Below, piece by piece: positions 28,581 to 59,111 of a stretch of 64,000 nt of DNA (the stretch's first letter is position 1; every line of letters starts with the position of its first letter). The DNA lies in the NCBI GenBank assembly GCA_021651055.1, contig JAJHOH010000001.1, forward strand, positions 3,534,001 through 3,598,000, written 5' to 3'. The stretch comes from Candidatus Manganitrophus morganii (lineage in GTDB: Bacteria > Nitrospirota > Nitrospiria > SBBL01 > Manganitrophaceae). The translations under genes and the position numbers were made by a program. The notes beneath the pieces are model-generated. The model was not told the DNA's origin. It saw only the letters and a program-made list of their open reading frames with translations, and searched no databases.

Positions 28581-28683
28581 ACAGGTCTGAAGGATGTTTT
28601 CTGCCATCGGCCGGCATAGAAGTTGCTCTGAGGGGAAAGCATGTGCATCAACCAACGGGATAAGAAAAACAGGAGTCAACCCA

Positions 28684-38202: not shown

Positions 38203-38237
38203 AAATCAAGCGCCATAAATAACCAAGACATCCAAGG

Positions 38238-38277: not shown

Positions 38278-38307
38278 ATCGGTACGAATAAGAGGAGGAA
38301 GAGGCTT

Positions 38308-39738: not shown

Positions 39739-39770
39739 AAAGAAGGATTTCATCAAGAGAGGAGGTTCTC

Positions 39771-40393: not shown

Positions 40394-40446
40394 GGTAGTT
40401 GAAAGGAAGGCGGTAATGGGGTTGAAAGGAAAAATGGAGGTCCTGA

Positions 40447-41699: not shown

Positions 41700-41710
41700 T
41701 CTGAGGAAGG

Positions 41711-41740
41711 GGGGTCCGGAGGCCGATACCTCCGGACCCC
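41711..41740 (+). promoter_or_regulatory. Perfect 12-bp hairpin before the methylase gene
   Basis: Arms GGGGTCCGGAGG and CCTCCGGACCCC with a six-base loop; no T run follows. It lies 20 bases before the methylase ATG (41761) and directly ahead of its AGGGAGG site, so it may regulate translation or protect the mRNA end rather than terminate transcription. Confidence 0.6.
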
Positions 41741-41760
41741 AACTTATACCAGGGAGGCCT

Positions 41761-44331
41761 ATGACGGAACAACTCGGTCTGTTCTCTTTATTGGATGGAC
41801 CATTACTGCAAGTGAATGATCCATCTCCCCTGTTTGTTAAGTCGACTGGAATTCGCGAAGAGAAGGAGACCGAGGTCTACCCGTTTCTCTCCTACCGGCT
41901 CTCTCGGTCTCCGTGGATGACCCACTTTGAGGGGAGCGGAGAGCGCGCTGAAAGGCACATCTCCGCGGTGAGCCGGGTTCCGGCTGTGAGATCAAGACTG
42001 ATCGAATTGATATCGAAGCTGAAAGAGGGTCGTGGGCCTTACGACGAATGGATGCAGATGGCGGCCATCCAGGAGAGGCTCTATCTCGATTATTCCGGCG
42101 AAGGGGGGCTTGCGGTCAGCGGCGACTTAATTCGGGCGCAGTTGACTTATATCCGCGATCGGGTTGTGCCGGCGGCTCAAAGAAAGGTTCTCCTCGCGGG
42201 CCTGTATGCGTTATTCGAGTCGGACTTCCCGCCGAGAGTCGCGTCTCTGGTGGAGTCGCTGCGGGGCCAGGCGGACAATTTCTCCTCCGGAGAGATCTCT
42301 TCAACTCGCATGGATTACTTTCTGGAGGGGCTGAACGAGTTGGAAGAGGAATTGGGAGACAGAGGTATCTTCGAATCCGTAGGACGCGCTTTGAACTCCG
42401 ATGAAGGGAACGGCGCTTACTACTCTCCAGAGGTCTTTCATCACCTTCTTCGGCTCATTCCGATTTCAGCCATCCCGGGACAGGAGATCAATGTCCTGGA
42501 GCCGAACGTCGGAAAGGGAAGCCTGATCCGGCCGATGGTTCATCATCCCGGATTTCTCATCGTTGGTAACGATCTCAATCCCATTTCCGCCGAGATCGCG
42601 GAAGTCACCACGATGGTCGATCCGACGGGGGTCGCAGTTGCCTGCAGAGAGGGCGGCGCCATCCCTACCGCCAAGAATTGCGCTGTTTTAAAACACCATG
42701 CGTTCGATCTGATGACCCTTCTTCCGGATCATCTCTTCGATCTGCTGATCGCCAACCCGCCGTATACGTTCGATCAACCGAAGAGCGGCTTTGATAAACA
42801 ATTCCGGGCCATGGGGCTGTCGAAAGGGCCGCAGGGGTTCTCGTTGGCCGCCTACACGCGGCAGATCTTGCCGATGAAACTGCGGGAAGGGGGGATTTCG
42901 ATTCTGATCACCTCGGCGCGATCCCGCAACTTCAAGCGGGTCCGCCATGCGTCGGGGCACATCAGCCACCCGATGATGATCCTGGCGATCACCGGCCAGC
43001 CGTTCTCCCAAAACGACGCCGAGTTAGTACCGGTCTCAATGCCGGCCTACCTGTTCGATGGGAAAGGAATGGCCGAGAAGAGACAGATCAGGGCGGAGTG
43101 TTTTATCTCGATCAATGTCTTCCTCTCCGCAAGAGAGGCCAACGGAAAACAGACCGCTTTTTCAGAGTGTGCGATCATCCAGGTCCACCATGAGCAGCTG
43201 GCCTCCTTCGTCGATTTGTATTTGGATTCCTCACGATGGATGAGCCTCGATCGCCAGCTGCTGGATCCTTCCATGCGGATGATGCAATCCGCAAATCTGC
43301 TTCGGATGTTCGGCCGAATCAAAGACGGCTTACGGGCCTATTTGGAGGAGAAGCGGATCTCCGCGAAGCGGCGATATGATCATGAGGAGGCGAGCCGGTA
43401 CGAAAGGTGGATTGAAGAGGTCAACAATAAACGGTTTCATCAGATCGGAACGTTCGAGGATCTGAACCAATGGATGATTGAACTTTCGGAGCGATGGAAT
43501 ATTCCGGTCCGAAAGGAGATCGAACGGGCCCTTCGCAACAACCCGCTTCGGGAGATTTTTGCCAAGAAAAGGAGAAATAGGGCCGGAGCCTCCGACGTTG
43601 CTTCGGAAGTGAAGAAGGTTTTTGAGGTGATTCTCTCTGTTTCCGATCGCTTTTTCTCCAGGTTTTATATCCTCAGCGCCATCTACCTCGCTCTGGCCCT
43701 CCGTGAGATCGCAGAGCTGCATGGTCCTTTCAACGGGGTCTCTTTCGATAGCGTTCATCCGATTCTGAAGCAGGCGCCGTACCCCCTCTCGCTCTATCTG
43801 CTCATAGAGAAAGAGATCTCGGAGATCTTGGAGTCCTTTCCCGAGGGGGAGCGGAAGGAGGTTCTGGGAAAGATGCGCGAACGGCGGCTTCTTCTGGTCT
43901 CTCATGTTTCGCAGTTCAACGCGATCAGCAAGGCCGCAAGAGACGAGTTGAACTCCGCCTTCGGGGAATCCTGGCGGCAAGATCTGATTTGCGGGGCCTT
44001 GCCGGAAAAACAGCGCATCCTGATACTGCTTGAGACAGGAAACGGTCTGGTCTTGGCGGTTGGGCAGCTCTTATTGGCATTGGTGGAGCAGGACGCGGTG
44101 AAAATCAGGGAGAGGAACCAAGCCTTATCGGTGTTCGATCTGATGGAGATGCAAGAGCAGTATCAGAGGTATTTGAGGGGTTTTAATTCGGGCGGTCTGA
44201 CGCAAAAGCGGATTGGGAACCTGATTCGGAAGACGGAGGAGTTGATCGGCCTCATGCAAAAGTCGCAGGAGATACTGACCGGCGCCCGGACGGGGCGGAA
44301 GAGAAAAATACGCCCACAACCCGTCGGATGA
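41761..44331 (+). CDS. Large N6-adenine DNA methyltransferase-like protein
   Basis: 856 residues; ATG 41761 follows the hairpin and an AGGGAGG site, while the frame is open further upstream without a good start. The N-terminal ~220 residues are helical. A class I methyltransferase domain follows: VLEPNVGKGSLI (about 246) binds SAM, DLLIANPPYTFD (NPPY at 332-335) is the adenine-methylase catalytic motif. The C-terminal ~400 residues are helical with no recognised domain. It is larger than ordinary orphan methylases and could modify the element against restriction. No restriction endonuclease gene is adjacent. Confidence 0.78.
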   Translation: MTEQLGLFSLLDGPLLQVNDPSPLFVKSTGIREEKETEVYPFLSYRLSRSPWMTHFEGSGERAERHISAVSRVPAVRSRLIELISKLKEGRGPYDEWMQMAAIQERLYLDYSGEGGLAVSGDLIRAQLTYIRDRVVPAAQRKVLLAGLYALFESDFPPRVASLVESLRGQADNFSSGEISSTRMDYFLEGLNELEEELGDRGIFESVGRALNSDEGNGAYYSPEVFHHLLRLIPISAIPGQEINVLEPNVGKGSLIRPMVHHPGFLIVGNDLNPISAEIAEVTTMVDPTGVAVACREGGAIPTAKNCAVLKHHAFDLMTLLPDHLFDLLIANPPYTFDQPKSGFDKQFRAMGLSKGPQGFSLAAYTRQILPMKLREGGISILITSARSRNFKRVRHASGHISHPMMILAITGQPFSQNDAELVPVSMPAYLFDGKGMAEKRQIRAECFISINVFLSAREANGKQTAFSECAIIQVHHEQLASFVDLYLDSSRWMSLDRQLLDPSMRMMQSANLLRMFGRIKDGLRAYLEEKRISAKRRYDHEEASRYERWIEEVNNKRFHQIGTFEDLNQWMIELSERWNIPVRKEIERALRNNPLREIFAKKRRNRAGASDVASEVKKVFEVILSVSDRFFSRFYILSAIYLALALREIAELHGPFNGVSFDSVHPILKQAPYPLSLYLLIEKEISEILESFPEGERKEVLGKMRERRLLLVSHVSQFNAISKAARDELNSAFGESWRQDLICGALPEKQRILILLETGNGLVLAVGQLLLALVEQDAVKIRERNQALSVFDLMEMQEQYQRYLRGFNSGGLTQKRIGNLIRKTEELIGLMQKSQEILTGARTGRKRKIRPQPVG

Positions 44332-44365
44332 TCGGAAACGATGAAGAATATTTAGGAGACAGTGG

Positions 44366-46027
44366 ATGCAAATCGAAGAAAATAGATCGATCAAGATCGA
44401 TGTGAATCTGAACATCATGATGAAAAATTTCGGCGAGGTCTTCTCCGGGGAGAGAATCTGGGTTCGGGAACTTCTGCAAAACGCCCGGCGCGCCGGAGCC
44501 ACACGGATCAACATCTACACAGACCGAAGTGATCCGAATTATTTTCGAATCGATGATAACGGATCCGGCGTCTCGGATTTCCAATCGCTTCTCACCCTGG
44601 GCGGCTCCGGATGGGAGCCGGAGGTGATCGAGCGAGAGAACCCGTTCGGAATGGGGTTCTATGCGGCCCTGTACGCGGCTGTGACCGTCGAGATCAGATC
44701 GCGGGGGCAGCGGGTAGTACTGCACAGCGGCCGGATTCTCGCAGGCGAACCGGTCGTCCTTCAGCCGTGCGAAATCCGATCCGGAACATCGATCATCCTG
44801 CATCTGAAAAAATCGACTGTAGACGCCGGGAAGGAAAATCAGATCGAGAAACTCAAAGAGGTCCTTGAGACGATCGTCCGCGGATTTCCGGTCCCCGTGT
44901 ATCTGAATACCGAATCTCTGTGCCGGCCGTACGCGTTGGATGTCTGGAGGGGGCTTCGGTTCGATCTCCCGGACGGAGTGGCTCTTGTGGAGTTGAACCC
45001 GAAGGACACCTTTTCCACGAAGGGAGTCACTTTCCTGCAGGGGCTTGTCATTTCGAGTGCGGACAATGGCTTACGGACCTGGCCGAACTTCAGCCGGCGC
45101 GGCATGCAGGTGTATATGCATCTTCACGGCGATCAATGGCGCGTCCGGGTCCCGGACCGGAACATGTTGTACGATTCCACCGAGACCCGGGAGAGAATCG
45201 GATCGCTTGAAAACGGGGTCGTAAAAGCCGCTGCGAATCATATCGAAGCGCAGGGACAAGCGGAGAGGTTTTTCGAATGCCTTCTGGAATGGGAATGTTA
45301 TGAAGCTGTCCGGAATCTTCCGATTCCGGCTTCCCGCTGGGGCCTACTGATCACTCCGATGCATCTGCTCCATTACGAGGGGGAGGATCAGGAGAATTCG
45401 TTTGGCTCCCCTGTGGAAATTCCGGCCTCCAACACGGAGTTGCGTTTCCTGAAAGACAGAGCGAGTCTCTACCCGGCGGATGACACCCTCGATCATCTCT
45501 TCGCCATGTACGCTTTTGGCCTGCCGATTCTGGATGCCTGGGACGATCCGGAGCATTGGTTCTCACGGGCGAGCGCCGGCGAAGAGATCGAGGCGTTTTA
45601 CAAACGCGGCGTGTCCGTCTCGGTCGAAAAGAATGACATCGTGGCGGAAGGAGCCTGGTGGGGGAAGAGGGTGGTTCTCTGTAAGCGGTTTTCCCTGACC
45701 CTGGAAGGATACGGGATAAAAGAGATCACGGAAGACGCCTTCCTCAACGGCGCCTTCTGGATCATCGATCGGCCTCTGCACTGGGATTATCCGATCGACC
45801 AGGCCTTTTACTTTCAGACGGAGGGAGAGGACTTCGACGAATCCGGCTTCGATGCGGCGATGGAGAACTTCCGGGCGAATCTCGCGATCATCAAGGGAGA
45901 TCCGGGCGCTTTGATTCAGAGCGCCCTTCAAGAGTATGCGCAAGCGCTCGACGGCAGCCGGTTTGTGGTGGAAGTCAAAGGGGGAGAGATTCAAGTCAAA
46001 GAACTCCCGGTAGCCACGAATACATAA
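44366..46027 (+). CDS. GHKL (Hsp90-like) ATPase
   Basis: 553 residues from ATG 44366, with TTTAGGAGAC upstream. The ATP-binding Bergerat fold is clear: WVRELLQNARRAGA, RIDDNGSGVSDFQSLL and NPFGMGFYAAL match the N, G1 and G2 boxes. A beta-rich middle with SRRGMQVYMHLHGDQWRVRVPDRN follows, then an unassigned C-terminus. The start is HtpG-like but the length and middle differ from true Hsp90. A role in DNA remodelling or defence is only a guess. A terminator hairpin follows. Confidence 0.75.
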   Translation: MQIEENRSIKIDVNLNIMMKNFGEVFSGERIWVRELLQNARRAGATRINIYTDRSDPNYFRIDDNGSGVSDFQSLLTLGGSGWEPEVIERENPFGMGFYAALYAAVTVEIRSRGQRVVLHSGRILAGEPVVLQPCEIRSGTSIILHLKKSTVDAGKENQIEKLKEVLETIVRGFPVPVYLNTESLCRPYALDVWRGLRFDLPDGVALVELNPKDTFSTKGVTFLQGLVISSADNGLRTWPNFSRRGMQVYMHLHGDQWRVRVPDRNMLYDSTETRERIGSLENGVVKAAANHIEAQGQAERFFECLLEWECYEAVRNLPIPASRWGLLITPMHLLHYEGEDQENSFGSPVEIPASNTELRFLKDRASLYPADDTLDHLFAMYAFGLPILDAWDDPEHWFSRASAGEEIEAFYKRGVSVSVEKNDIVAEGAWWGKRVVLCKRFSLTLEGYGIKEITEDAFLNGAFWIIDRPLHWDYPIDQAFYFQTEGEDFDESGFDAAMENFRANLAIIKGDPGALIQSALQEYAQALDGSRFVVEVKGGEIQVKELPVATNT

Positions 46028-46044
46028 GAAACCAGGAAGGTCAA

Positions 46045-46088
46045 AGAGGGGCTCTCTTCGTCAACACGAGGAGGGCCCCTCTTTTTTT
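46045..46088 (+). terminator. Strong terminator 11 bases before the 46100 gene
   Basis: A 17-bp stem with two G-T pairs (46045-46061 pairing with 46066-46082, loop CAAC) and T run at 46082-46088. The ribosome site AAGGAGACGTC fills the space to ATG 46100. As with the other hairpins, no independent promoter fits in between. Confidence 0.85.
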
Positions 46089-46099
46089 AAGGAGACGTC

Positions 46100-47269
46100 A
46101 TGGAAGTGAAATTCCGATACGAATTGACGAGCCGGATGGGATGCAATCTATATGAGGCTCTGAGGGAAGAGGATTTCGACAGGATCACCGAAGGTGAGAC
46201 CGAATACTATCGCGAGCAGTCGGAGGTCGGATGTGAGATCCGGAAACCCTTTGTAGAATGGCTCGAAGGACATCTTCCTGCGCGGGATTGGCGGGAAATC
46301 AAAGAGGGAATCGGATGCGATGATCTCTCAAAATGGTTGTTGGAGAATCCGGTCCCCGAACGGGACGAAGATTTAAGGAGAACATATTCGGAAAAGGAGA
46401 TCGAATTTCTAACAACGACACAGACGAAGACCAAAAGCGGCATCCATCTGCCCCTGTTGTGGGATCATATCGATCCCGACGATGACGCCGACGTGGCGCT
46501 CGGTTTCGGCCTTATCACCTATCCTCCGGTAGATGAGAGCGGCCGGTATATTCAGAGCGGAAACAGCCGGCATCTTCCGGCCGATATCGCAAACCGGATC
46601 AAAGCGTGGATGGAGGAGGCCAACGAACTGGCAAGAAAGACCGGCCGCGGCGTCGGATCTCCTGATCCGAAGGATGACCTGGACCGAGCCATCGACGAGA
46701 AAGTAGCCTCCCTTTATCGGGAGGCCTCGTGTTTATCGGAGAAGACCGTGCTGTCCCTCATTCGGATAGAGGGATTTTATTGCGGGATTCACGGAGGAAC
46801 TGTGAAATATGAACGACCCATCCTGAGATCGGAGGTGTTGGCCTGCCCTTCCTGCAATCATCCGGTCTGCCCGTTCTGTGCCAACTGTTACGAGAAGGAT
46901 CCGGCGACGATCGAGGAGGCGAGGGCGTATCTGGCCTCCTGTGATGAGGTCTCAGGAATGGCCTATTGCGGGCATTGCGGGGATTGGGGTGTGGAATGGA
47001 TGCTTCGGTTCCTGCGATTAAAGTGCTGTCCCATCCCGCCGGAATACGAGAATCACCAGCCGGCGGCGAGATCCGTGCGGTTCGTCGCCACCAACACCGT
47101 TGCCGCCTTGCCGGACTGTCATCTCATCCTGGAATCGGTGTCCCGGAGCTTCGCAAAAGGGATCTCGGGAATCATTCACTATCCGCATTCCACGGGAGAG
47201 ATCTGGGGCATTCCGGAGAGACACCCTGAAGGATGGATTGTGACCCTCTGCTATCCGGAGGAGCGATGA
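46100..47269 (+). CDS. 389-residue protein with Cys-rich zinc region, unknown
   Basis: ATG 46100. The N-terminal half is charged and helical. From about residue 215 come many Cys and His: YCGIHGG, LACPSCNHPVCPFCANCYEKD, YCGHCGDWG, suggesting two zinc-ribbon or treble-clef sites. The C-terminus is alpha/beta (GISGIIHYPHSTGEIWGIP). No family recognised. Its stop overlaps the next start. Confidence 0.6.
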   Translation: MEVKFRYELTSRMGCNLYEALREEDFDRITEGETEYYREQSEVGCEIRKPFVEWLEGHLPARDWREIKEGIGCDDLSKWLLENPVPERDEDLRRTYSEKEIEFLTTTQTKTKSGIHLPLLWDHIDPDDDADVALGFGLITYPPVDESGRYIQSGNSRHLPADIANRIKAWMEEANELARKTGRGVGSPDPKDDLDRAIDEKVASLYREASCLSEKTVLSLIRIEGFYCGIHGGTVKYERPILRSEVLACPSCNHPVCPFCANCYEKDPATIEEARAYLASCDEVSGMAYCGHCGDWGVEWMLRFLRLKCCPIPPEYENHQPAARSVRFVATNTVAALPDCHLILESVSRSFAKGISGIIHYPHSTGEIWGIPERHPEGWIVTLCYPEER

Positions 47270-47613
47270 CCACGAAATGGACCTATCCGTTCGTAAAAGA
47301 GTATCTCAGATTTGTCCGAAAGGCGTTTGAGATCACCCGCGCCGGCGGCCGAATCAAAATACGCTGGAGTGACAGCCCGATGGAACTGCGGGCCTGGCGG
47401 AAAGAGTTTATCGACGCCCTCGACCGTCGCATCACCAAATATGGAGGCCTCGATGGGAGGGGCCGGAAATTCGATCCCGACTGGCAATTGTGGATGTGTA
47501 GAGACCGCCATCGTTTGGAGGACATTCGAAAGCGAATCCGTGTTTATCAGTTCGAAACCCCGGAGATGCAACGTCGGTACGGGCATCTGCTCGCGCGCCG
47601 GGATGACTTCTGA
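47266..47613 (+). CDS. 115-residue protein, unknown
   Basis: ATG 47266 overlaps the previous TGA. The product is basic and aromatic (YPFVKEYLRFVRKAFEITR, RIKIRWSDSPMELRAWRKEF), possibly nucleic-acid binding. It is translationally coupled to the upstream gene and immediately precedes the PRTRC cassette. No family recognised. Confidence 0.6.
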   Translation: MTTKWTYPFVKEYLRFVRKAFEITRAGGRIKIRWSDSPMELRAWRKEFIDALDRRITKYGGLDGRGRKFDPDWQLWMCRDRHRLEDIRKRIRVYQFETPEMQRRYGHLLARRDDF

Positions 47614-47666: not shown

Positions 47667-49370
47667 ATGGAAACAGATCAGAAAGTGGAAATGATCGCCA
47701 TAAAAGACATTTTCGTAATCAAGAACAGCAGGCAGTATATCGATCCGGCCGCGTTGGGGGAATTGGCCGAGAACATCAGGATGAACGGCCTCATTCAACC
47801 GATCACGGTCGTCCCGAACGGGGAAGGGAAATACGATCTCGTCATGGGGGAGAGACGTCTGCGCGCCCACGAGAAGCTGGGGATGGAGAAGATCGCCGCG
47901 ATCGTTCGGGAGGGGCTGACGGCCGAGCGGATGAAAGCGATCCATCTGGCCGAGAATATTCAACGCGAATCTCTTCCCGCGATCGACGAGGCGGAAGCCT
48001 TTGAGGAGCAGTTGGCCGAAAAATCGATTCAGGACCTCGCCGCGATGATCAACCGGAGCGAAGAGTACATTCGCCGGCGGATGAAGCTGCTTCATCTGAT
48101 CTCGGAGGCGAGGGAGAAGGTCAGGACCGGCGCGATCGGCCTCTCCGTAGCAGAGTTGTTATCGTGTCTTCCCGACGACCGGCAAAAAACGATGCTGGCC
48201 ACGGTGGAGGAGCAGCGCCTCAACGCGGTACAACTCTCCAATCTGCTGAACCATCAGAACGATCGGCGGCTCGTCAATGCCGTCTTCGACACCCAGGACT
48301 GCCGTAACTGCCCCCATAACAGCGCGGGTCAGCCGGATCTCTTTGCTCGGGAGGCCTCGGGTCTTGGGAAGTGCCTCTACGATCCGTGCTGGAGCAGGAA
48401 AGATCTGGAGAAGGCGAAATCTCTGGCGAAACAGATCGAAGAGATGGGGCCCCGGGCGGTCATCGCCGGGAAGGTCAAGATCGGCATCGACGATCTTCCC
48501 CCGGAGATCGATCAAACCCAGGCCGTCATGCACAATAAGGGGGAGCTGGGCGAGGAGGCTCTGCGGGATTGCCAGAGTTGCAAATTTCTGGTTGTTTTCG
48601 TCTCCGCGGGAGGTTACCCGCTGCGGCAGAATATCTGCACGAACCGCCCCTGCTACGAGGAGCGCGCGGCGCGATTCCGGGGAGGGAATGCGGAAAAGAA
48701 GTCCGGATCTACAAAGGGGGGAGCCAAGGCCGAAAAAGATCCCGGTTTAAAGAATGTATCCACAGCCAGTCCGGTTCCCAAAAAGATGACCCCCGCAAAC
48801 GCTCCCCAGCGGGTGAAGGATTTCAAAAGAAATCGATATCAGGAATATCTGGCCGCTCACCTCTTAGAAACCCCGGAGAATCGACTACGGCTGATCCTCC
48901 TTGCCATGAAAGACACCTCCTGGGGGAGGAACTGGACTGGGGATTCCACCCTGAAAGAACTTAATCTGGCCTGCGACGGCTTTGAATCCGATCCGCCGAA
49001 GCTCTATTCCAAGCTGAAAGCCTTGAACGCGGAGCAGCTGATGACCGCGGCGGGGAGAATGGCACTGAAGGCGCTCGATAAATTCTCTCTCCCTTTAATC
49101 GAGGAGATGGTCTTCACCGATCTTGCGGCCACCCCGGAAGTCCTCTTTAAGATCGATCGAACCTACCTGGAGCTGCTCACCAAAGCGGAGATCGAGGCCA
49201 CCGCGAAGGAGGTCGGCATGACCATGTTCCTTCAGAACAAAGGGGGGTCGGTATCGAAGTTATCCACCCGGCCGAAGAAGGAATTCATCGATGCGCTCCT
49301 CGCCTGCGGATTTACGGCCCAAATCATGCCGGCCTGGCTTACGCGGGAGACCGATTTTCAAAACGGATAA
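47667..49370 (+). CDS. parB: PRTRC-system ParB-family protein
   Basis: 567 residues from ATG 47667, with CAGGAGAAAAC upstream. The ParB N-terminal domain has NGLIQPITVVPNG and VMGERRLRAHEKLG; MKAIHLAENIQRESLPAIDEAEAF follows, then a helix-turn-helix (SIQDLAAMINRSEEYIRRRM). The middle carries Cys clusters (CRNCPHNSAG, CLYDPCW, CQSC, CTNRPCYEERA) characteristic of the PRTRC ParB variety, and the C-terminal ~180 residues are a helical extension. It heads a seven-gene cassette whose order (ParB, E, C, F, B, A, ThiF) is that of PRTRC systems on ICEs and plasmids. It probably binds DNA; no ParA partner is present. Confidence 0.9.
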   Translation: METDQKVEMIAIKDIFVIKNSRQYIDPAALGELAENIRMNGLIQPITVVPNGEGKYDLVMGERRLRAHEKLGMEKIAAIVREGLTAERMKAIHLAENIQRESLPAIDEAEAFEEQLAEKSIQDLAAMINRSEEYIRRRMKLLHLISEAREKVRTGAIGLSVAELLSCLPDDRQKTMLATVEEQRLNAVQLSNLLNHQNDRRLVNAVFDTQDCRNCPHNSAGQPDLFAREASGLGKCLYDPCWSRKDLEKAKSLAKQIEEMGPRAVIAGKVKIGIDDLPPEIDQTQAVMHNKGELGEEALRDCQSCKFLVVFVSAGGYPLRQNICTNRPCYEERAARFRGGNAEKKSGSTKGGAKAEKDPGLKNVSTASPVPKKMTPANAPQRVKDFKRNRYQEYLAAHLLETPENRLRLILLAMKDTSWGRNWTGDSTLKELNLACDGFESDPPKLYSKLKALNAEQLMTAAGRMALKALDKFSLPLIEEMVFTDLAATPEVLFKIDRTYLELLTKAEIEATAKEVGMTMFLQNKGGSVSKLSTRPKKEFIDALLACGFTAQIMPAWLTRETDFQNG

Positions 49371-49419
49371 ATCAATTCTGTAAAGAACATACCAGACCAA
49401 CACAATAAGGAGGTTCACC

Positions 49420-49893
49420 ATGTTTGATTTTACAAAGATCTCAAATCTCATACCGCCCCAGGGGAAAGTGACTTTTACTATTACCACGGGGGAGCGCGGG
49501 AAACTGGTCGTGCTCTTCCATCCGATGTATCCGGAGGTGAATCCGCTTTCCGGGAAGGAAAAGGAGTTGTATGAGCAGGCGCGGGTACCGCTGGTTTTTA
49601 AGGCGACCCCGGAGGAGCTCAACGAAGGGTTTATGTCGCTGATCGAGCAGAACTACGAAGAGGAAGGGAGGCTGCATCGCGCCTTTTCGGTCAAACGGGA
49701 AGCGGTCAGTAAGGCGATCTCAGGGGCCGATAAAGGGAAGACCGAAAAGAAAGAATCAAGCGAAGAGAAGAAGCCCTCTGAATTGGATACGCCTCAGCCG
49801 GACACGTCTCAAAAGGTCGACTCGTCGAAGGAGAAAATTGGGACCCCCGCCGGGGTTGAAAAGGAGCCTTCCGCGTTTGATTTGTTTGGTTAA
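49420..49893 (+). CDS. PRTRC system protein E
   Basis: 157 residues, ATG preceded by AAGGAGGTTCACC. The first ~65 residues (MFDFTKISNLIPPQGKVTFT, VVLFHPMYPEVN, PLVFKATPEELNEGF) match the PRTRC E pattern. The rest is a Lys/Glu/Ser-rich disordered tail ending SAFDLFG, as seen in this family. Biochemical role unknown; assigned by sequence and cassette position. Confidence 0.85.
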   Translation: MFDFTKISNLIPPQGKVTFTITTGERGKLVVLFHPMYPEVNPLSGKEKELYEQARVPLVFKATPEELNEGFMSLIEQNYEEEGRLHRAFSVKREAVSKAISGADKGKTEKKESSEEKKPSELDTPQPDTSQKVDSSKEKIGTPAGVEKEPSAFDLFG

Positions 49894-49931
49894 GCGCTCC
49901 ACATATAAACACATCTGATAATGGAGGATTT

Positions 49932-50369
49932 ATGGATATACAAAAAGTAGAACGCGTTTTTGAATACGGTTCATTAAAACTGGCCGATCCCGATCCGGTC
50001 ATGTCGCCCGATCGGGTCAAGGAGTTTTACGCTACGGTCTATCCCGAGCTGACCCAGGCGGTTGTGGGGGAGCCGGAGCGCCGGGGAGCGACCCAGGTCT
50101 ACAAGTTCACCCGGGCCGTCGGAACCAAGGGGGGCGAGCAATCGCCCCCCCATCTTCACATGCAGTGTCCCATCCTGCTCGCCGTCGAGCAACTGGCTAA
50201 AATGTCGGAAGAAGGTCTTGAAGAGGAGAAAGGAGCGCGATGTCCAAACGACTTACTCACCCGGTTTCTAGGAGCGATACAACGGAATACAGAACCAATC
50301 GCCCAGGTACAGGAGCGGCCACCAAACGAAAGCCCGCTTCCCGGTCGATTCCTCCCCCTACTGCCGTAA
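49932..50369 (+). CDS. PRTRC system protein C, extended
   Basis: 145 residues from ATG 49932. The first ~70 residues (VERVFEYGSLKLADPDPVMSP, FYATVYPELTQAVV, FTRAVGTKG) are PRTRC C, which usually ends about there. The reading frame continues for about 75 more residues, the last 43 codons lying inside the protein F gene in another frame. This tail may be real, or it may reflect loss of the original stop codon. Confidence 0.8.
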   Translation: MDIQKVERVFEYGSLKLADPDPVMSPDRVKEFYATVYPELTQAVVGEPERRGATQVYKFTRAVGTKGGEQSPPHLHMQCPILLAVEQLAKMSEEGLEEEKGARCPNDLLTRFLGAIQRNTEPIAQVQERPPNESPLPGRFLPLLP

Positions 50370-51391
50370 TTCCCCTCCCGAAGCTCGATCAGTCACTCGC
50401 AACGCTCGTCTACGCAAGTACGGGCCTTCCCAACAGCCTGCTCGCCCGCGCGGGCTTATGGATCTCTCGCGCCCTGAGCAAAACCCGATGTGGCAAACCC
50501 GGTCCCTGGGGAGAGCAGACGCGGCCGGATCGGATCCAGGTGGAACTTGCAGGTTGGATCAAAGGAATGTTCGACGAGATCTGCTCAGCGAGTTTCGGCA
50601 ACTGCGGGCATGAGATCGGGATAGGAAAATTAGAAAGCTCTGGATCATTGCATTGTGGGATGATGATCGACCATCCGATCGACTGCAACGCGATCTTCTG
50701 CGATGTTCTTCCTCAGATCGGGAAAGCCGATCTACGCTTGGAGGCGGTGGTGGTGGCCGCTTTGCAGACGCTGACATGGGTAAAACCGTATTATACATAC
50801 GATGATCAAATCGAAAGCTGCCTGGATCTCTATGAGCAAGACCGTTATGAAATGGAAAAGGGGAGCGAGGATGAAAAATATTTCCAGGAGAGACTCCAGT
50901 GGCTCCAAAATGGGATTCCTCAAGAGTACCGGTTTCTTTTCCGAGGGAAAGACAAGCCGGTTTTTCCGGAGCTTCCGCCCCCTCCCCCGGATGACTCCTG
51001 GTTATACCGATGGCATCTCTGGGCGGAGGAGGTCCGCGAGATCAGTACCAGGTGGACCCGGCCTATCCGAGAAGAGGCGCCCGCCGGGGACTATTATGAT
51101 GATAATTTTTACCCTGAGTTACTGACACCGCTCCTCTGGTCCACCTCCGATCCCTTGGTCGAAGCATTCGATCAGGAGGCGCAGGGGTACTATGAGAATT
51201 CTCTTGGCTCGAAATCGGTCTTTCCGTTCAAGAGCGCTCAGCAGGTTTCCGAGGTCCTCACGGACCTTAAACAGCTGGGCGAGTGCTATCGACTGCATTT
51301 AAAGGCATGCTCTTTGGCGAGGCCTTCGCTCGCCCAGGGAAATGGGCGGTCACCAGAGGAGAATGAAAATGGTACAGACACTCAATCTTAA
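50240..51391 (+). CDS. PRTRC system protein F
   Basis: 383 residues from ATG 50240, with GAGGAGAAAGGAGCG upstream. Features fitting PRTRC F include IPLPKLDQSLATLVYASTG, a Cys/His-containing middle (CSASFGNCGHEIG) and a long helical C-terminal half with Pro-rich FPELPPPPPDDSW. No enzymatic motif seen. It overlaps protein C upstream and protein B downstream, so the cassette is translated as one unit. Confidence 0.8.
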   Translation: MSKRLTHPVSRSDTTEYRTNRPGTGAATKRKPASRSIPPPTAVIPLPKLDQSLATLVYASTGLPNSLLARAGLWISRALSKTRCGKPGPWGEQTRPDRIQVELAGWIKGMFDEICSASFGNCGHEIGIGKLESSGSLHCGMMIDHPIDCNAIFCDVLPQIGKADLRLEAVVVAALQTLTWVKPYYTYDDQIESCLDLYEQDRYEMEKGSEDEKYFQERLQWLQNGIPQEYRFLFRGKDKPVFPELPPPPPDDSWLYRWHLWAEEVREISTRWTRPIREEAPAGDYYDDNFYPELLTPLLWSTSDPLVEAFDQEAQGYYENSLGSKSVFPFKSAQQVSEVLTDLKQLGECYRLHLKACSLARPSLAQGNGRSPEENENGTDTQS

Positions 51392-52094
51392 CGCAGCACT
51401 GCTCTATTACACCGGACGGGATTCCCTGCCTTCCGAGGCGATCCATTACTGGCAGATCCATCCGATCGAGATATCTGAAAAGGGGATTCCGCTGCTGAGG
51501 GAGGGGCGTCGCGTTGAAATGAAAGATCTCGAATCGCTCTGCAGGGCTACCGCGCCGGATCTCATCCGAAATATCGGCTGGATCGATCCCATGCTGCTGG
51601 CCTACGGCGTGGGATCGGAAGGCCCTCTGGTTTTCTTCCGGCCGCAGGTTCGGCGGCCCATCTATTTCGGACGGCAGATTTCGCTGAAGTCCGGCGTGGT
51701 TTTATGGCCGTCGCTGGTTCTGGTCGCGTTCTCCCGGCGACTCTATGTCTTCGTGACGAAGACCATCTTGCGTCCCGCCCTTTCCACTTCGCTACTGATG
51801 CCTCCCTTTCTCAATGTGAATGCCAATCATGAAGTCTGTCTGGGTTCAAGCCGCATACCGGGAGGGGGCATGCCGCAGGAGATGGAGACCTGGGCCGAGG
51901 CATTTTACACAAGCGCCTTCACCCATACGAATGCGCCGGATAACCACTTCCTGAAACAAGGAACGATCGTGCAACTCTGGGAGGCGCTGCTTTCGGGTAA
52001 ACGAAAACGCTTTCCGTATCATCTTCTAAAACCGGCCGGGATCACTCTCCGGCAGCTTCTACAAAAGATAGGACTCGATGAATCCGAAAGATGA
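51369..52094 (+). CDS. PRTRC system protein B
   Basis: 241 residues from ATG 51369 (ATG 51363 is also possible), overlapping protein F by 23 bases. The segments LNAALLYYTGRD, PEAIHYWQIHPIE-like start and FLNVNANHEVCLGSSRIP, then EAFYTSAFTHTNA are typical of PRTRC B, a protein with an E2-like fold in related systems. Together with ThiF (E1-like) and A (JAB) this recalls ubiquitin-like conjugation machinery; that link is inference. Confidence 0.85.
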   Translation: MVQTLNLNAALLYYTGRDSLPSEAIHYWQIHPIEISEKGIPLLREGRRVEMKDLESLCRATAPDLIRNIGWIDPMLLAYGVGSEGPLVFFRPQVRRPIYFGRQISLKSGVVLWPSLVLVAFSRRLYVFVTKTILRPALSTSLLMPPFLNVNANHEVCLGSSRIPGGGMPQEMETWAEAFYTSAFTHTNAPDNHFLKQGTIVQLWEALLSGKRKRFPYHLLKPAGITLRQLLQKIGLDESER

Positions 52095-52698
52095 AATTAT
52101 TCAAACGCGTCTTCCCACAGTGATGGTTCCGGTGTTTGAGCCGTTACCAGCCTTGAAAGCGGGGGAGACGCGGCTGGCGATGGCCGAAGATGGCTTATGG
52201 ATTGAGATGGATGCGGGCTGGGGGCACTTTTGTCGGCCGCTCTGGAAGAGCCGACGAAAGTTGCCGTATGGAAATGTTGGAGCGTCATCACAGCTTCGCT
52301 GCGGCCGCATTCCACTGAAGTTGATCGAGCGATTTGCCGAACAGGCTAACGAATGGGCCGATTCTGGATGTGAGACCGCGGCCTGGATCACCTGGGGTGC
52401 AGACTGCGGCTGGGAGTATCTTGTGTTGGAGGTTCTGGAGCGATCGGCGGTATCGGTGCGATATCAATGGCCGGATTTAGATCCGGAGACCGTGCTTGTA
52501 TTGGACCTTCACAGCCATGGAGCCGGGGCCGCGTTCTTCTCCCACACCGACGATCAATCCGATCTGGGATTCCCGCATTACTCGCTGGTTTTGGGCCGCG
52601 CTGGTAAAGACCGGCCGCTCACTCAACTGGATTGCAAGCTGCGGCTCTGTCTCGCCGGGTACTTTTTCGACGAGCCGGCGCCTTGGGTTCAAGCATGA
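52078..52698 (+). CDS. PRTRC system protein A (JAB/Mov34-like)
   Basis: 206 residues from ATG 52078, overlapping protein B by 17 bases. The C-terminal half has LHSHGAGAAFFSHTDDQSD, in which the HxH (first His about residue 144) and Asp match a JAMM metal site, followed by LVLGRAG. JAB enzymes cut isopeptide bonds or C-terminal tails of ubiquitin-like proteins; bacterial substrates are unknown here. The order A then ThiF is usual for the cassette. Confidence 0.87.
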   Translation: MNPKDEIIQTRLPTVMVPVFEPLPALKAGETRLAMAEDGLWIEMDAGWGHFCRPLWKSRRKLPYGNVGASSQLRCGRIPLKLIERFAEQANEWADSGCETAAWITWGADCGWEYLVLEVLERSAVSVRYQWPDLDPETVLVLDLHSHGAGAAFFSHTDDQSDLGFPHYSLVLGRAGKDRPLTQLDCKLRLCLAGYFFDEPAPWVQA

Positions 52699-52710
52699 TC
52701 GGAGGGATCA

Positions 52711-53520
52711 GTGCGGCACTATGTCCGTTTCGATAACGATTTTCGGCCGGTGGAAATTCATCTGGTTGGCTGCGGCGGGACAGGCAGCGCCCTGGCCACC
52801 CGGCTGGTACAACTCAATATGGCACTGATCGCCCTGGGACATCCGGGGATGAAGGTCACTGTCTATGATCCGGATATTGTGAGCGAGGCCAATATAGGGA
52901 GGCAGATGTTCTATCGCGCCGATGTCGGCCATCCGAAGGCGTCCGTGTTGGTGACCCGGATCAACCAGTGCACCGGTTTTTCCTGGGAGGCGGCGCCTAT
53001 AAGATATTTCCTCAAAGGCTACCGTTCTCCGGATCTTTTGATCAGCGCGGTCGATACCGGTAAGGCGAGGATCGAAATCGGGGAGATCCTTCGGAGAGGA
53101 ACCGCCGGCGCCTACTGGTTGGATTGTGGCAATAGCCGAAGCCAGGGGCAGGCGGTTTTCGGGACCGTGCGGGAGGTAGAGAAACCGAAGATCCAAGACG
53201 TGATCGGGCGGCTCCCGACGGTCTTGGATCTCTACCCCGAAATCAGAGACCCAGCCAGGGAGAAGGATCAGGGGCCTTCTTGTTCTCTGGCGGAAGCGAT
53301 CGAGCATCAGGATCTCTTTATCAATCAGTTTGTCGCGATCGAAGCCGTGGAGATGCTCTGGAAGGCCTTCCGATACGGCTTTCTGGAGTATTCCGTGGCG
53401 TATGTCAGTTTAACACCGCGGAGTACCTCGGTCCTGCCGATCGATCCGAAAGCCTGGGAGCGATTTGGGTATTGGACTAGACGCGGGCGAAAGAGGAACG
53501 GCGGACTGAGGGATCATTGA
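52711..53520 (+). CDS. PRTRC system ThiF/E1-like protein
   Basis: 269 residues from GTG 52711, with CGGAGGGATC upstream. The nucleotide-binding loop IHLVGCGGTGSALATRL and VTVYDPDIVSEANIGRQMF match the E1/ThiF/MoeB adenylation fold. ISAVDTGKAR follows, typical of the family. It lacks the zinc-binding CxxC pairs and an obvious catalytic Cys loop of classical E1s. It ends the cassette. PRTRC protein D (actin-like ATPase) is not found in the window. Confidence 0.88.
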   Translation: MRHYVRFDNDFRPVEIHLVGCGGTGSALATRLVQLNMALIALGHPGMKVTVYDPDIVSEANIGRQMFYRADVGHPKASVLVTRINQCTGFSWEAAPIRYFLKGYRSPDLLISAVDTGKARIEIGEILRRGTAGAYWLDCGNSRSQGQAVFGTVREVEKPKIQDVIGRLPTVLDLYPEIRDPAREKDQGPSCSLAEAIEHQDLFINQFVAIEAVEMLWKAFRYGFLEYSVAYVSLTPRSTSVLPIDPKAWERFGYWTRRGRKRNGGLRDH

Positions 53521-53657: not shown

Positions 53658-53900
53658 ATGAAAAGAGAAATTGGTTCCTACGAAGCGAAGACGAAGCTCT
53701 CAGAGTTGCTGCGGCAGGTGAAAGCAGGAAAGAGTTTCACGATTACGAGTCGGGGGGAAGCTGTCGCGGACCTTGTGCCGAGCGTCGGGGCGAAGACGAA
53801 AGACAAAGCTGCGGCGGTGAAAAAGATGAAGGCGTTCATGCTGGAGAACCCGGTGCGCGGGGTGAACATCAAGGAACTCATCGAAGAGGGGCGCGCGTGA
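53658..53900 (+). CDS. Phd/YefM-family antitoxin (second pair)
   Basis: 80 residues from ATG 53658. MKREIGSYEAKTKLSELLRQVKAGKSFTITSRGEAVADLVP is the Phd/YefM DNA-binding domain; the short C-terminus (NPVRGVNIKELIEEGRA) should bind the toxin. It overlaps the toxin start by four bases. The pair sits between the PRTRC cassette and the helicase gene and likely reinforces maintenance. Confidence 0.88.
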   Translation: MKREIGSYEAKTKLSELLRQVKAGKSFTITSRGEAVADLVPSVGAKTKDKAAAVKKMKAFMLENPVRGVNIKELIEEGRA

Positions 53901-54322
53901 GGTTTGTCGTCGACAATTCCGTTTCGATGCGCTGGTTCTTCGGCGACGGCAAGCCGCAGGAACTCGCCTATGCCACAGAAGCGCTTGACGCGATGCGGGA
54001 CGGGAGTGCGCTCGTGCCGGTCACATGGGGGCTCGAAGTGGCGAATGTCATCGCAAGGGCGGAAGCGAAGGGATTGGTCACAGAGGCTCGCAGCGAGACC
54101 TTCCTCGGGATGCTCGAAGAGGTGGATATCGAAGTGGATGATGCGACTTTCTCGCATGCGTTGTCGGAGACCCTTCAATTGGCTCGGCGTTACCGGCTTT
54201 CCTCCTATGACGCCTCCTATCTCGAACTGGCTTTGCGCGAGGGGATACCTCTGGCGACGCTGGATGAAGAGCTACAGAAGGCGGCCAAGAAGGCGGGCGT
54301 AAAGCGATTTGCAATAAGATAA
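53897..54322 (+). CDS. PIN-domain VapC-type toxin (second pair)
   Basis: 141 residues from GTG 53897. MRFVVDNSVSMRWFF supplies the first Asp, LEVANVIARAEAKG the Glu, and RRYRLSSYDASYLELALREGIPLATLDEEL the later Asp residues of the PIN nuclease site. All four acidic positions look present. It is distinct in sequence from the PIN toxin at 31610. Expected to be an RNA-cutting toxin held in check by the upstream antitoxin. Confidence 0.88.
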   Translation: MRFVVDNSVSMRWFFGDGKPQELAYATEALDAMRDGSALVPVTWGLEVANVIARAEAKGLVTEARSETFLGMLEEVDIEVDDATFSHALSETLQLARRYRLSSYDASYLELALREGIPLATLDEELQKAAKKAGVKRFAIR

Positions 54323-54473: not shown

Positions 54474-54494
54474 CAGACCATGATGGAGATCTTT

Positions 54495-57400
54495 ATGAGC
54501 GGGAACGCAGCCAAAGAATTGCAGAAGGCACTCAAACAACTTCAGAGGTTTCAGAGAAAACTCAAGGAAGTCGAAAATCGCCCGGACGAAATCGAGGAAT
54601 TGGTGGAAGAGGAGGTATCCAATCTCTGGAAGCCGGTGGACCCGATTCAGCGCATCCGAATACCGGCCGCGCCGGATATCCGGCTTCCTTTTTTCATGCC
54701 CGCCCGGCAGAGAGAAGTCGCTTATATCGAGGCTTCCGCCCACGAAGCGGGGCTCTTCCTGCTTCCGTACACACAGACATTCCGAGAGCAGTTTACAGAG
54801 CGCTTCGAAGCGAAGATCTCCTCTGTAAGACGGCTGCTGCAGCGATTACGGGATCTGGAGCTGGAATATCATCAAGAAGCCAAGACGCAGTCCTTTGAAA
54901 ACGAGGCTCCGGATGATAAGGACCGGGCGACGAAGGAGGACTTTGAGCGTCTGACCGGTGACTACAACTTCTTCAAGTACCTCCATACGGTCACCCTGGA
55001 TAACAGCAAACTGGGACGACTCTTCAGTGAGATCGGATCTCTACTGGGAGAGGCGCAGAATGGAGGGATCGTCGCATGTCTGAAAAAGGAGCAGAGCAGC
55101 GGCAGGACCGGCGGCGCCCTTGCAGAGGCATTGGAGTCATTCGATCAGATCGCGCCCCTGTGCGGCAATATGTATCTCTCCTCCATCGCCTCCTGGGCTT
55201 CGTTGTCCAACTTCATCTCCTCGGAAGCCAAGAAGCTCGAAAGGGAGATGCTCGATGGAGTAGGCCCTGAGATTTACCGGCCTGACTATCTTGCCTTTCG
55301 GGAGACGATCAAGCGGACCACAGAGGGGTTATCGGGAGCGCCGACCTCCATGCAGGAGAAAGCGCTTTATTATGCCTATCTGAGTTTTCAGGTGCACCTA
55401 TTGGAGAAAAGAAAGGATCCCTTCCGGCTGAATAACTTCGCCCAGGTCGGCGCCGGCAAGACCTACACCACGCCGATCTTCCTGAAGGTGTTCTCCCACC
55501 TGATTAATCAGAAGTGGGCGAAACGGCAACGCCCGCCCATCAAACTCCTCACACTCTATTTTACCGAGGCCAACCTCTGCCGGAATGTCATCAACTCCAT
55601 GGTCGAGATCAGTGTTCCTAAAGACACGCTGCACCAGATCCAGATGAAGAAGTTGCCCACCCTCACAGTCAAAGACGGCGATTGCGTCGTTCTCAGCCGC
55701 CATGAGTTCGGGCTCAAGGAGGAGGAAGAGATTATTCGACCTCTGGAGATCCTCATCCGAAGAGGGTTTCAGTTCATGATCGTCGCCGATGAATCGTCGT
55801 TCTTGAAGAACTCCGAGAGTGGGATCTCGCATGCGATGGAGCGCCTTTACGCCTATCTGCGGCGAAGAGGAGTTCTCTGGGTGGACTATCGCCTCTCCGC
55901 CACCCCCACGAACAATGACACCGGCGATTTTCTCTATCTGTTGGCGACGAATCGGATCAACATCGGCTCCTTTCTTCATGCCGATCCCGACATCGCGCTG
56001 AAAATGGAGGCGCATCTGGCCGCAGGACAGGAGCGCTCCGATCCCGAGCACAGGATCACATTGAACCAGCTTCTGAGACTATTGAATCGCGGAAGTTCCC
56101 GGACCGGAATTCTCTTGATGATGAACCTCATCGAAAAATCGGCAAAAAACGCACAGGACAAAGACGGAGAGAAAGGAGGAGAGGATACTGAGAAGTACGT
56201 TCTGGAACTGGTCTATACCGACTGCGCCGGCGCCATTCTCTCACTCTATTACATGGCGGTTTACCACTCGCATCGTTTCAACATCCCCTCCTGGTTGGGA
56301 AAGGATAAAGAGGGTCACAGCGTGGAGCCGACCCTCCTCGACGTCATGAATAAGCTTGGCGTCGGCTTTACCCGAATTCATCAGCCGGCGGGGGAAAAAG
56401 TGAAGCATCTCATCGGCCTTGAGCGGCCTCTGGTCCATCCCGGATCGCGGGAGATGAGCTGCCTGATCCCCTGCATCCCTCTGCTCAAAGAGATCGCATC
56501 CGCCTTGACCTACGATCGGGCGCTGAACGCGGATGAGGAAGTCCATTTCCAGATCAACGCCAAACAGCTGAAATCGAATCTCCTGGAGGCGGTCACCAAT
56601 CTCGAGGTGTTGGAGAAGATCAGAGAGTTTCTCAATCTGATGATGTTCGTGAATCTGGTCCGAAAGGTCAGAGGCAGCCAGCGCGCCTGGTGGACGGTCG
56701 GAGAGGCCGTAGAAGTGGAATTCCGAAAGCTGCGGTTGGAATTCGTGGCGGCCTATGCGCAGGTTCGCGGTATCCCGTTGATTCAGAAGGAAGAGGTGGT
56801 CCATCGGAAGGTTCATCAGGGGTTTCAGATCGTCGAAGAGACGGAGTGCTACCCGTACTTGGCGATTGAGTCTCATAAAAAGAAAGATCTCATTTGCCTT
56901 TTGCGAGGTCTTTCTTATGAAGGTCTCTTGTGGCATCGGCTCCTGGACGACTTGGCCCAGTATTTTGCTCCGGTCCGTTTCTTTGAGATGGTCGATCTTC
57001 TGGAGGAACTGAAGACTGAAGGAAAGACCCTGCGAGAGAGGGAGAGGCTCGATGAGGAGATCGAGAAAAAGCGATCCCTGATCACGGAGATGCTGATCGA
57101 CGCCTTGGGGCTCTCTTACGAGATCCAGGAGTATGCAAAGGTGCTGACCCTTTTAGAGGGCGATGTCACAGAGCTTCCGGCGGAAGAAGACGACCTGCTC
57201 CATTTTCGGCCGTCGATCCTCTCGAAATACCCGATCTTTTTAAAAGAGGTCCTCGATCTGCTCAAGAGTGTGCTGGAGGATCTGCAGGGGTCCGAGCGGT
57301 TTGCTCTTGCGGATGTGATTTCGGATATCGGCAGCGAGAACGTCGATTTGGCGCAGACCCTGGCCGAATACGGGATCATCTTCAAGGCCTCCGAGTCGGT

Positions 57401-58340
57401 CAATTTTCCGCTGGTCTTGCGGTTTGCAGACCGGATTCTACAGAAGCTGGGGTCGATCTTTGCCAAAAAAGAGATACAGCTGACCCTCCGGGAGGAGGAT
57501 GTCGGTGGCATCCGGCGGACCGTCGCGAGGAGCGCAAGCTTTGAGAATTTCGCAAGGAAGCTCTCGGAGATGGCGAAGGTTCATGAATCTCCGGTGTTGA
57601 TCTCCTGCCGCTATCGCTTCTCCCAGAAAAGTGTCGCGGCCACGACCGGGGCCCTGTATGCGGTGACCGGGGAGACGGATAAGGCGGAGCGGTATCGCAT
57701 CCTGGAATCGTTCGATCATATGGATGAGAAGATGGGGCGGGTCTTGGTAGCGACCACCCGGTCGATCATGAAGGGATTTAACCTCTTCTATGCCCAGTAC
57801 GGCTGTATGTCGGAAGGACTGGACAACGCCGAAGTGCGGATGCAGATGGCAGGGCGGCTTCGTCCCCTTTTCCCGCAGCATCTCAAGGAGATTCAAAGGA
57901 TGTTGGAAGTATTGAGAAAAGAGAAGCCGGAGGCGCCGGTAATCCTGCATTTGGATCGGTTGTCGAAGAATGTGAAAGTCTTCGATGTGATCTCTCCGCA
58001 GATCATATCGGGTTTTCCGGATATTCAGAATACGAAGGCGTTTCTGCTCCATACCTTTCTTTTCTCCCAGACCCATCAGCGATCTTTTCCGGCCATCTTC
58101 TCCGATGAGGAGGTCTTCCACTATGTCGACACCGAGCCGGCATTTAGCGCCAAAACGGTGGAGGCCTTCTGCCGGAAGACCATCGAGGAGGCGATCGAGG
58201 GATACCTGTTGAAACTGCGTGGGAGGAAGGAGATTGTGGTTTCGGAGCTGATCGAGATGATGGAAGAGGAGATTGAAGCCGTGGCCTGCGAGAATATCAA
58301 GGCATCGAGCTATCTTCCCCTACTTCAGGCGGCGTCATAA
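54495..58340 (+). CDS. 1281-residue SF2 (DEAD/SNF2-like) helicase
   Basis: ATG 54495 is preferred for its GGAG site; ATG 54480 would add five residues. Residues ~1-300 are a charged helical region. Walker A lies in QVGAGKTYTT (about 317), the motif II equivalent is VADESSFLK (about 431), motif III LSATPTNN follows, and motif VI-like VRMQMAGRLRPLFP is near 1120 after VLVATTRSIMKGFNLFYA. The region between the two RecA lobes is greatly expanded (over 500 residues). The C-terminus is helical. The protein resembles large helicases encoded with DNA methylases on ICEs and could act in antirestriction or DNA processing; it may pair with the methylase at 41761. Confidence 0.82.
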   Translation: MSGNAAKELQKALKQLQRFQRKLKEVENRPDEIEELVEEEVSNLWKPVDPIQRIRIPAAPDIRLPFFMPARQREVAYIEASAHEAGLFLLPYTQTFREQFTERFEAKISSVRRLLQRLRDLELEYHQEAKTQSFENEAPDDKDRATKEDFERLTGDYNFFKYLHTVTLDNSKLGRLFSEIGSLLGEAQNGGIVACLKKEQSSGRTGGALAEALESFDQIAPLCGNMYLSSIASWASLSNFISSEAKKLEREMLDGVGPEIYRPDYLAFRETIKRTTEGLSGAPTSMQEKALYYAYLSFQVHLLEKRKDPFRLNNFAQVGAGKTYTTPIFLKVFSHLINQKWAKRQRPPIKLLTLYFTEANLCRNVINSMVEISVPKDTLHQIQMKKLPTLTVKDGDCVVLSRHEFGLKEEEEIIRPLEILIRRGFQFMIVADESSFLKNSESGISHAMERLYAYLRRRGVLWVDYRLSATPTNNDTGDFLYLLATNRINIGSFLHADPDIALKMEAHLAAGQERSDPEHRITLNQLLRLLNRGSSRTGILLMMNLIEKSAKNAQDKDGEKGGEDTEKYVLELVYTDCAGAILSLYYMAVYHSHRFNIPSWLGKDKEGHSVEPTLLDVMNKLGVGFTRIHQPAGEKVKHLIGLERPLVHPGSREMSCLIPCIPLLKEIASALTYDRALNADEEVHFQINAKQLKSNLLEAVTNLEVLEKIREFLNLMMFVNLVRKVRGSQRAWWTVGEAVEVEFRKLRLEFVAAYAQVRGIPLIQKEEVVHRKVHQGFQIVEETECYPYLAIESHKKKDLICLLRGLSYEGLLWHRLLDDLAQYFAPVRFFEMVDLLEELKTEGKTLRERERLDEEIEKKRSLITEMLIDALGLSYEIQEYAKVLTLLEGDVTELPAEEDDLLHFRPSILSKYPIFLKEVLDLLKSVLEDLQGSERFALADVISDIGSENVDLAQTLAEYGIIFKASESVNFPLVLRFADRILQKLGSIFAKKEIQLTLREEDVGGIRRTVARSASFENFARKLSEMAKVHESPVLISCRYRFSQKSVAATTGALYAVTGETDKAERYRILESFDHMDEKMGRVLVATTRSIMKGFNLFYAQYGCMSEGLDNAEVRMQMAGRLRPLFPQHLKEIQRMLEVLRKEKPEAPVILHLDRLSKNVKVFDVISPQIISGFPDIQNTKAFLLHTFLFSQTHQRSFPAIFSDEEVFHYVDTEPAFSAKTVEAFCRKTIEEAIEGYLLKLRGRKEIVVSELIEMMEEEIEAVACENIKASSYLPLLQAAS

Positions 58341-58954: not shown

Positions 58955-59035
58955 GGAGAAGGAGCTTCCTGCTGGTCACCGTTTGGTCACTGTTTATTTT
59001 TACGTTCAGGTGTGATCTTCTAAGTTGTTGATTTT

Positions 59036-59111
59036 TGGTGGAGCTGCGGGGGATCGAACCCCGGACCTCCTGATTGCGAACCAGGCGCTCTCCCAGCTGA
59101 GCTACAGCCCC
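59036..59111 (-). tRNA. tRNA-Ala (anticodon CGC)
   Basis: Read leftwards the sequence folds as a full cloverleaf: acceptor GGGGCTG with CAGCTCC, D arm GCTCAGCTGGGAGAGC, anticodon loop TTCGCAA (anticodon CGC, reading GCG), T arm CGGGGTTCGATCCCCG-like, discriminator A and an encoded CCA. It belongs to the chromosomal side, but its 3' end points at the ICE, the usual target of tyrosine-integrase elements. It is therefore the probable attachment site at this end. Confidence 0.95.

Follow-up and report, generated by a model that had tools for sequence, protein, structure and literature searches.

A PRTRC Cassette on an Integrative Element of Candidatus Manganitrophus morganii: a Putative Ubiquitin-Like Conjugation System and Its Candidate Tag Precursor

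Introduction

Operon type 6d encodes an E1-like protein, an E2-like protein with a conserved cysteine, a JAB protein with an extra N-terminal domain, a ubiquitin-like protein with a conserved C-terminal glycine, and a helical protein (Iyer et al., 2006; PMC1779556). The same set is found in the PRTRC cassette treated here, which lies at 47667-53520 of a 64,000-nucleotide stretch of the Candidatus Manganitrophus morganii genome and has the gene order ParB-E-C-F-B-A-ThiF; ParB is unmentioned in that paper. The whole stretch, below called the window, covers positions 3534001-3598000 of the one 4.29-Mb contig that makes up the source genome.

PRTRC cassettes are known from plasmids (TIGR03734-TIGR03742). 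One of these, CP114559 of Ca. Manganitrophus, has the same gene order as the window and a C protein that is also long-tailed, while the present cassette differs in being carried by an integrative and conjugative element (ICE). The Bil system (BilABCD) has a ubiquitin-like protein, an E2, a JAB and an E1 in common with PRTRC. Its BilA contains two ubiquitin-like domains and its BilD is a larger E1, whereas the ThiF of PRTRC is a minimal adenylation domain, and E, F, ParB and the small protein X described below are additional components of PRTRC. The JAB of Bil exposes the C-terminal glycine of the tag BilA (PMC11354881).

The original prediction, made from the sequence of the window, took ThiF, B and A for an E1/E2/JAB set. 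This reading was published already in 2006 (PMC1779556) and is not new, but it is supported by the invariant catalytic residues and by the fold model of B presented below. We propose that mobile elements carry in this cassette a ubiquitin-like conjugation system complete in itself, in which C would be the tag, A would mature it and E would act as an adaptor to the replication sliding clamp; the probability of this reading is in our judgement about 0.55. The locus as such belongs to a known kind of system. What is new, and goes beyond operon type 6d, is the tag-precursor arrangement (a tail on C and, in a phage, a poly-tag), protein X, and the lead to the sliding clamp.

Protein C and Its Maturation by Protein A

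Based on its match to Prok_Ub, protein C is the ubiquitin-like tag itself and not the target. The original guess was that the protein modified might be E or C; for C this does not hold, and E would be better explained as an adaptor. A search for C-terminal glycine tails had also been suggested, and the domain of C was found to end at a glycine or the equivalent residue across the 114 related loci compared, which were taken from plasmids, phages, viral contigs and genomes (labelled L with a number below).

What follows this glycine depends on whether the locus encodes A. Where A is missing, C stops exactly at the terminal glycine or the equivalent residue in all 38 loci, and none has a tail; the C protein of one of them, L116, ends in GTKA and not in GTKG. 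Where A is present, C is extended in 67 of 76 loci. The extensions range from 3 to ~100 residues, and that of the window has 78. Fisher's test on 100 loci gives a raw p of 3.5e-20, a value inflated by related loci. A different precursor is found in the Bacillus phage KLEB27-3, where gp199 (L167:2236-2943) consists of four tandem Prok_Ub domains that each end in GVKG, and thus forms a phage poly-tag. It is encoded upstream of a PRTRC_A-like protein and a ThiF homologue. Since the tail is confined to loci with A, and the tandem tags are found in a phage locus that has A, the most likely role of A is to mature the tag by freeing C from a larger precursor.

Some observations weigh against this role. 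Eight loci of the set used for the trees have A and no C tail of at least three residues (L004, L040, L080, L091, L094, L109, L158, and L166), some of them with a separate X; in these, A must have another role. The trees further show that A changes 5-6 times, and independent contrasts are few, with only 2-3 on well-supported branches and 5-6 on the best tree. These contrasts were all as expected or showed no difference, and none was opposite. None was significant, and the sign tests were underpowered.

Protein X

Many relatives have an uncatalogued open reading frame of 41-96 amino acids between C and F, here called X, whose end resembles LPxxxxPxLP or LPPxxxPLLF. It was scored by a pattern set after inspection. 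X is separate in 29 of the 38 loci without A and in 35 loci with A, while in 31 loci with A, including the window, it is fused behind the glycine of C. Some loci with A combine a different kind of tail with a separate X. Comparison of the fused tail of the window with that of L002 indicates conservation at the protein level (pN/pS 0.37 before the overlap with F, based on few sites). Cleavage by A would be expected to release the X-bearing tail. To our knowledge, neither the X-like tail nor its link to A has been described before.

The Enzymes ThiF, B, and A

The residues expected of the three enzymes are strongly conserved. ThiF has the nucleotide-binding glycines, the arginine, lysine, and aspartate residues, and a candidate catalytic cysteine, and its Ser-Cys pair is kept in 126/126 sequences. 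In B, a proline, an asparagine, a cysteine, and a glycine are invariant in 121/121 sequences (the asparagine and cysteine are Asn158 and Cys166 of the window protein). The JAMM motif of A is found in 74 of 75 sequences, the remaining one being cut at the end of its locus; in the window, the HxH-x7-S-x2-D motif reads HSHGAGAAFFSHTD.

AlphaFold2 models were built from alignments of non-plasmid loci. Structure prediction of B had been proposed as a check, and it gave an E2-like fold (predicted local distance difference test score 90.5). Comparison of this model using VIA-align gave E2 or UEV domains as nearly all among the matches listed, from Z 5.6 downwards and covering residues ~79-229; one listed row, at Z 3.0, was clearly unrelated. 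B thus models as a very diverged E2 with a UBC fold. Against this assignment it must be said that the best fold match is modest at Z 5.6, and that Foldseek found nothing significant with the B model. Sequence searches for solved structures homologous to B and ThiF gave none.

C and ThiF belong to the ThiS and ThiF superfamilies, and the cassette might for that reason be supposed to carry out ThiS/MoaD-like sulphur-carrier chemistry, where C would donate sulphur and no protein would be tagged. We consider this very improbable, as neither a rhodanese domain nor metabolic genes are present, and as every cassette has an E2-like protein whose Asn and Cys are invariant.

Protein E and the Sliding Clamp

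Protein E is predicted by AlphaFold2 to consist of a small domain, a disordered linker modelled with low confidence, and a hydrophobic tip. The N-terminal domain was modelled with moderate confidence as strands and one long helix, and its best matches (Z≤6.8) were unrelated folds, so that it could be placed in none. The tip resembles the consensus for binding to sliding clamps, QL[S/D]LF (PMC3716654); examples are FTLDLF, AFDLFG, GFSLFE, and TFNLFA. A clamp-like pattern is found in 40 of 87 distinct E tips as compared to 38 of 1398 background ends of open reading frames (2.7%), and in none of the ends of ParB, B, or A. Clamp genes are neighbours of E in several lineages; in eight loci dnaN is found within ~100 nt of E, and other loci have sliding-clamp genes elsewhere near the cassette. 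Four loci where E adjoins dnaN have QxxLF or QxxFF tips (L066, L089, L108, and L116). Where Pfam was applied it confirmed the clamps, although the match in L066 is weak; the clamp of L108 is identified by a custom profile only. Reading the tips as SSB-like was rejected as a general explanation; such tips need a terminal phenylalanine, and many E proteins continue past it.

Several points speak against a link between the E tip and the clamp. The tip pattern was picked post hoc, when the tips had already been seen. The tip of the window, AFDLFG, lacks the glutamine of the consensus, and many E proteins of the Bacteroidota type end in acidic runs. No clamp gene is found on the present ICE, the sole dnaN of the genome being chromosomal, and only 6 of 22 PRTRC plasmid or phage records carry one. 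The link is a tentative candidate suggested by the sequences, and we consider it somewhat less than an even chance.

ParB, Protein D, and the Recurrent Core

It was originally predicted that the cassette lacks protein D and any ParA. Both absences were confirmed: the actin-like protein D gave no match at a threshold as loose as E≤1 anywhere in the 4.29-Mb genome, which includes the suggested search of the rest of the ICE, and a search across the element gave no ParA-type ATPase. The absence of D is, however, ordinary, as D is either distant from the cassette or missing in the records searched. It is found in 7 of 17 other records or genomes that carry the cassette or a related ThiF, and is absent in 10. 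It never adjoins the cassette where positions can be compared, and on plasmids it is ~18 kb or more away.

The idea that a cassette without D represents a minimal core is therefore unsupported, the more so as some cassettes are smaller still. That of a Parabacteroides plasmid is reduced to E-C-F-B-ThiF, with neither ParB nor A, and only ParB is missing from the E-C-F-B-A-ThiF set of a Mu-like Burkholderia phage; Mu-like phages also lack D. Bacteroidota plasmids and viral contigs are found that lack all of ParB, A, and D. Among the viral-contig cassettes a nearby ParB is missing in 71 of 75, and A is missing in 26. What recurs as a core are E, C, F, B, and ThiF together with the small protein X.

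In plasmid and ICE cassettes the operon almost always opens with the ParB gene. This would fit a role in partition, where C would be attached to ParB or to partition complexes on the DNA, and the tip of E would bind a protein of the cassette, for example F or ParB, instead of the clamp. Such a role is unlikely, since the 71 viral-contig cassettes without a nearby ParB have yet kept E-C-F-B-ThiF, and it is clamp genes, not par genes, that recur beside E in the viral-contig cassettes.

Distribution and Relation to Defence Systems

Among 72,556 plasmid records, 379 carry a ThiF of the PRTRC type; in IMG/VR, ThiF relatives are found on 250 viral-contig stretches. PRTRC cassettes are common in viral and prophage contigs (L057-L136). 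The phage-borne E, C, X, F, B, and A proteins tested gave no match in PHROGs. When the class to which L004 belongs was surveyed, matches at E≤1e-30 were found in 2 of 369 genomes. Divergent ThiF/A/B loci with dnaN a few kb off are found in Nitrospirota (L149, L150, and L151). The nearest named relative of the ThiF of the window, at 82% identity, is that of a metagenome-assembled genome of the Manganitrophaceae. In the open-access literature PRTRC appears in annotations and in mentions of expression; no functional study was found there.

The enzyme classes are those of Bil (PMC11354881), and this, together with the mobile location and the sporadic distribution, could be taken to indicate anti-phage or inter-element defence via protein tagging, like Bil or Bub. 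The PADLOC set models for Bil, CBASS Cap2, and other catalogued defence systems were, however, unmatched by the C-to-ThiF set, with only weak matches of ThiF to the Cap2 E1-E2 models, and the cassette is common in phage and prophage contigs and in plasmid backbones themselves. A defence function thus appears quite unlikely.

Proposed Mechanism

From the component identities, the catalytic residues, the fold of B, the association between A and the tail, the architecture and tip of E, and the clamp genes beside E, all read directly from sequences or models, we infer a cleavage site, a conjugation route, clamp binding, a substrate, and a purpose for the proposed conjugation system. A, as a JAB peptidase, would cut the C precursor after Gly67 and so separate the mature tag from the X-bearing tail. 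ThiF would adenylate the exposed C-terminal glycine of C and probably form a thioester on Cys191, and C would then be handed to Cys166 of the E2-like B and further to the substrate. A may remove tags as well. E would be the adaptor, its C-terminal tip docking on the replication sliding clamp, which would be that of the host here and is element-encoded in some relatives; docking on the clamp would site the tagging at replication forks. On plasmids and ICEs ParB might give element specificity.

A more far-reaching version, which we regard as rather unlikely, is that PRTRC is a bacterial counterpart of clamp-directed ubiquitylation. E would then bring an E1 and E2 specific for C to the clamp, where either the clamp itself or a protein bound to it would be tagged, favouring replication or stability of the element. 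The likeness to eukaryotic PCNA ubiquitylation, where tagging takes place at the sliding clamp, is an analogy only and implies no homology.

The Cassette and the 228-kb Element

The seven genes were predicted to be present in order and tightly coupled, and both statements agree with the NCBIfam and Pfam matches and the short spacings (Table 1). C, B, A, and ThiF all exceed the NCBIfam cut-offs. For ParB, TIGR03734 is the best match, with 235.8 bits against a cut-off of 278.6; position and length fit, and ParB_N is also matched. E reaches 37.6 bits with TIGR03741 (cut-off 37.95) and 26.7 bits with Pfam PRTRC_E, just above the cut-off of 26. F has no match in the NCBIfam or Pfam libraries. It is 35% identical to F of Nitrospirota relatives, which in turn match a profile built from other lineages at E ~1e-12 to 1e-14, and it is thus identified by its position and by this chain of homology. 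There are gaps of 49 nt between ParB and E, 38 nt between E and C, and 12 nt between A and ThiF, while C and F overlap by 130 nt, F and B by 50 nt (less if B begins at the ATG at 51369), and B and A by 17 nt.

Table 1. Features of the PRTRC cassette and of the right end of the element (window coordinates).
Feature	Position	Strand	Basis and remarks
ParB-family protein (ParB_N and helix-turn-helix)	47667..49370	+	TIGR03734 E 9e-70, below cut-off; PF02195, PF17762
PRTRC protein E: small N-terminal domain, disordered linker, short C-terminal tip	49420..49893	+	TIGR03741, PF19556; AlphaFold2 model
E tip AFDLFG, sliding-clamp-motif-like	49873..49890	+	compared with consensus QL[S/D]LF (PMC3716654)
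PRTRC protein C, putative precursor: ubiquitin-like domain to ..AVGTKG (Gly67, 50130-50132), then 78-aa tail	49932..50369	+	TIGR03738, PF14454 Prok_Ub
C tail with X-like sequence, end ESPLPGRFLPLLP	50133..50366	+	separate gene in many relatives
PRTRC protein F	50240..51391	+	position; homology to F of relatives; likely ATG start 50240 after AAAGGAG
PRTRC protein B, diverged E2-like (model)	51342..52094	+	TIGR03737, PF14460 (Prok-E2_D); probable start ATG 51369; Asn158, Cys166 (51837-51839)
PRTRC protein A: DUF2016 and JAB/JAMM peptidase	52078..52698	+	TIGR03735, PF09436, PF14464 (Prok-JAB); motif HSHx7SxxD at 52510-52551
PRTRC ThiF, E1-like adenylating enzyme	52711..53520	+	TIGR03736 E 1e-80; GCGGTGS; PSC191S (53281-53283)
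Right attachment repeat, 49 bp	59034-59082		within 3' part of tRNA-Ala(CGC)
tRNA-Ala(CGC)	59036-59111	-	right end of element, ahead of chromosomal pur genes

The cassette was also predicted to sit on an F-type ICE, and this proved correct. The element is ~228 kb and is delimited by exact 49-bp repeats of the 3' end of tRNA-Ala(CGC), the second copy being found 228 kb upstream beside a tyrosine-recombinase open reading frame. It encodes the F-type transfer proteins TraN, TraU, TrbC, TraF, TraH, and TraG. The F-type type IV secretion system, the integrase, and the attachment repeats make it an F-type ICE; a relaxase was not firmly identified. Upstream of the cassette, at 37792-47613, are found genes encoding RadC, an AAA ATPase, DUF1257 and DUF3150 proteins, and further genes, in the same order as on the Manganitrophus plasmid CP114559 (L035), which indicates that the ICE and this plasmid share a backbone.

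Other genes of the element lie on both sides of the cassette. Immediately after ThiF, at 53658-54322, a toxin-antitoxin pair of the Phd-like/PIN (VapC-like) type is encoded, followed at 54480-58340 by a protein of 1286 amino acids with no Pfam match; a comparably long protein follows the cassette of CP114559. The region 41542-46027 encodes a 929-amino-acid protein with weak similarity to PADLOC mad2 (methylation-associated defence) and a GHKL-ATPase protein. A ribonucleotide reductase large subunit is encoded by the ICE at 28594-30975.

Implications

The proposed conjugation system leads to predictions about the site where A would cut C, the active end of the tag, the inclusion of X in a reconstitution, and the sliding clamp as the first partner to try. 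If the clamp link is true, the replication machinery would be the target of a protein-tagging system borne by mobile elements.

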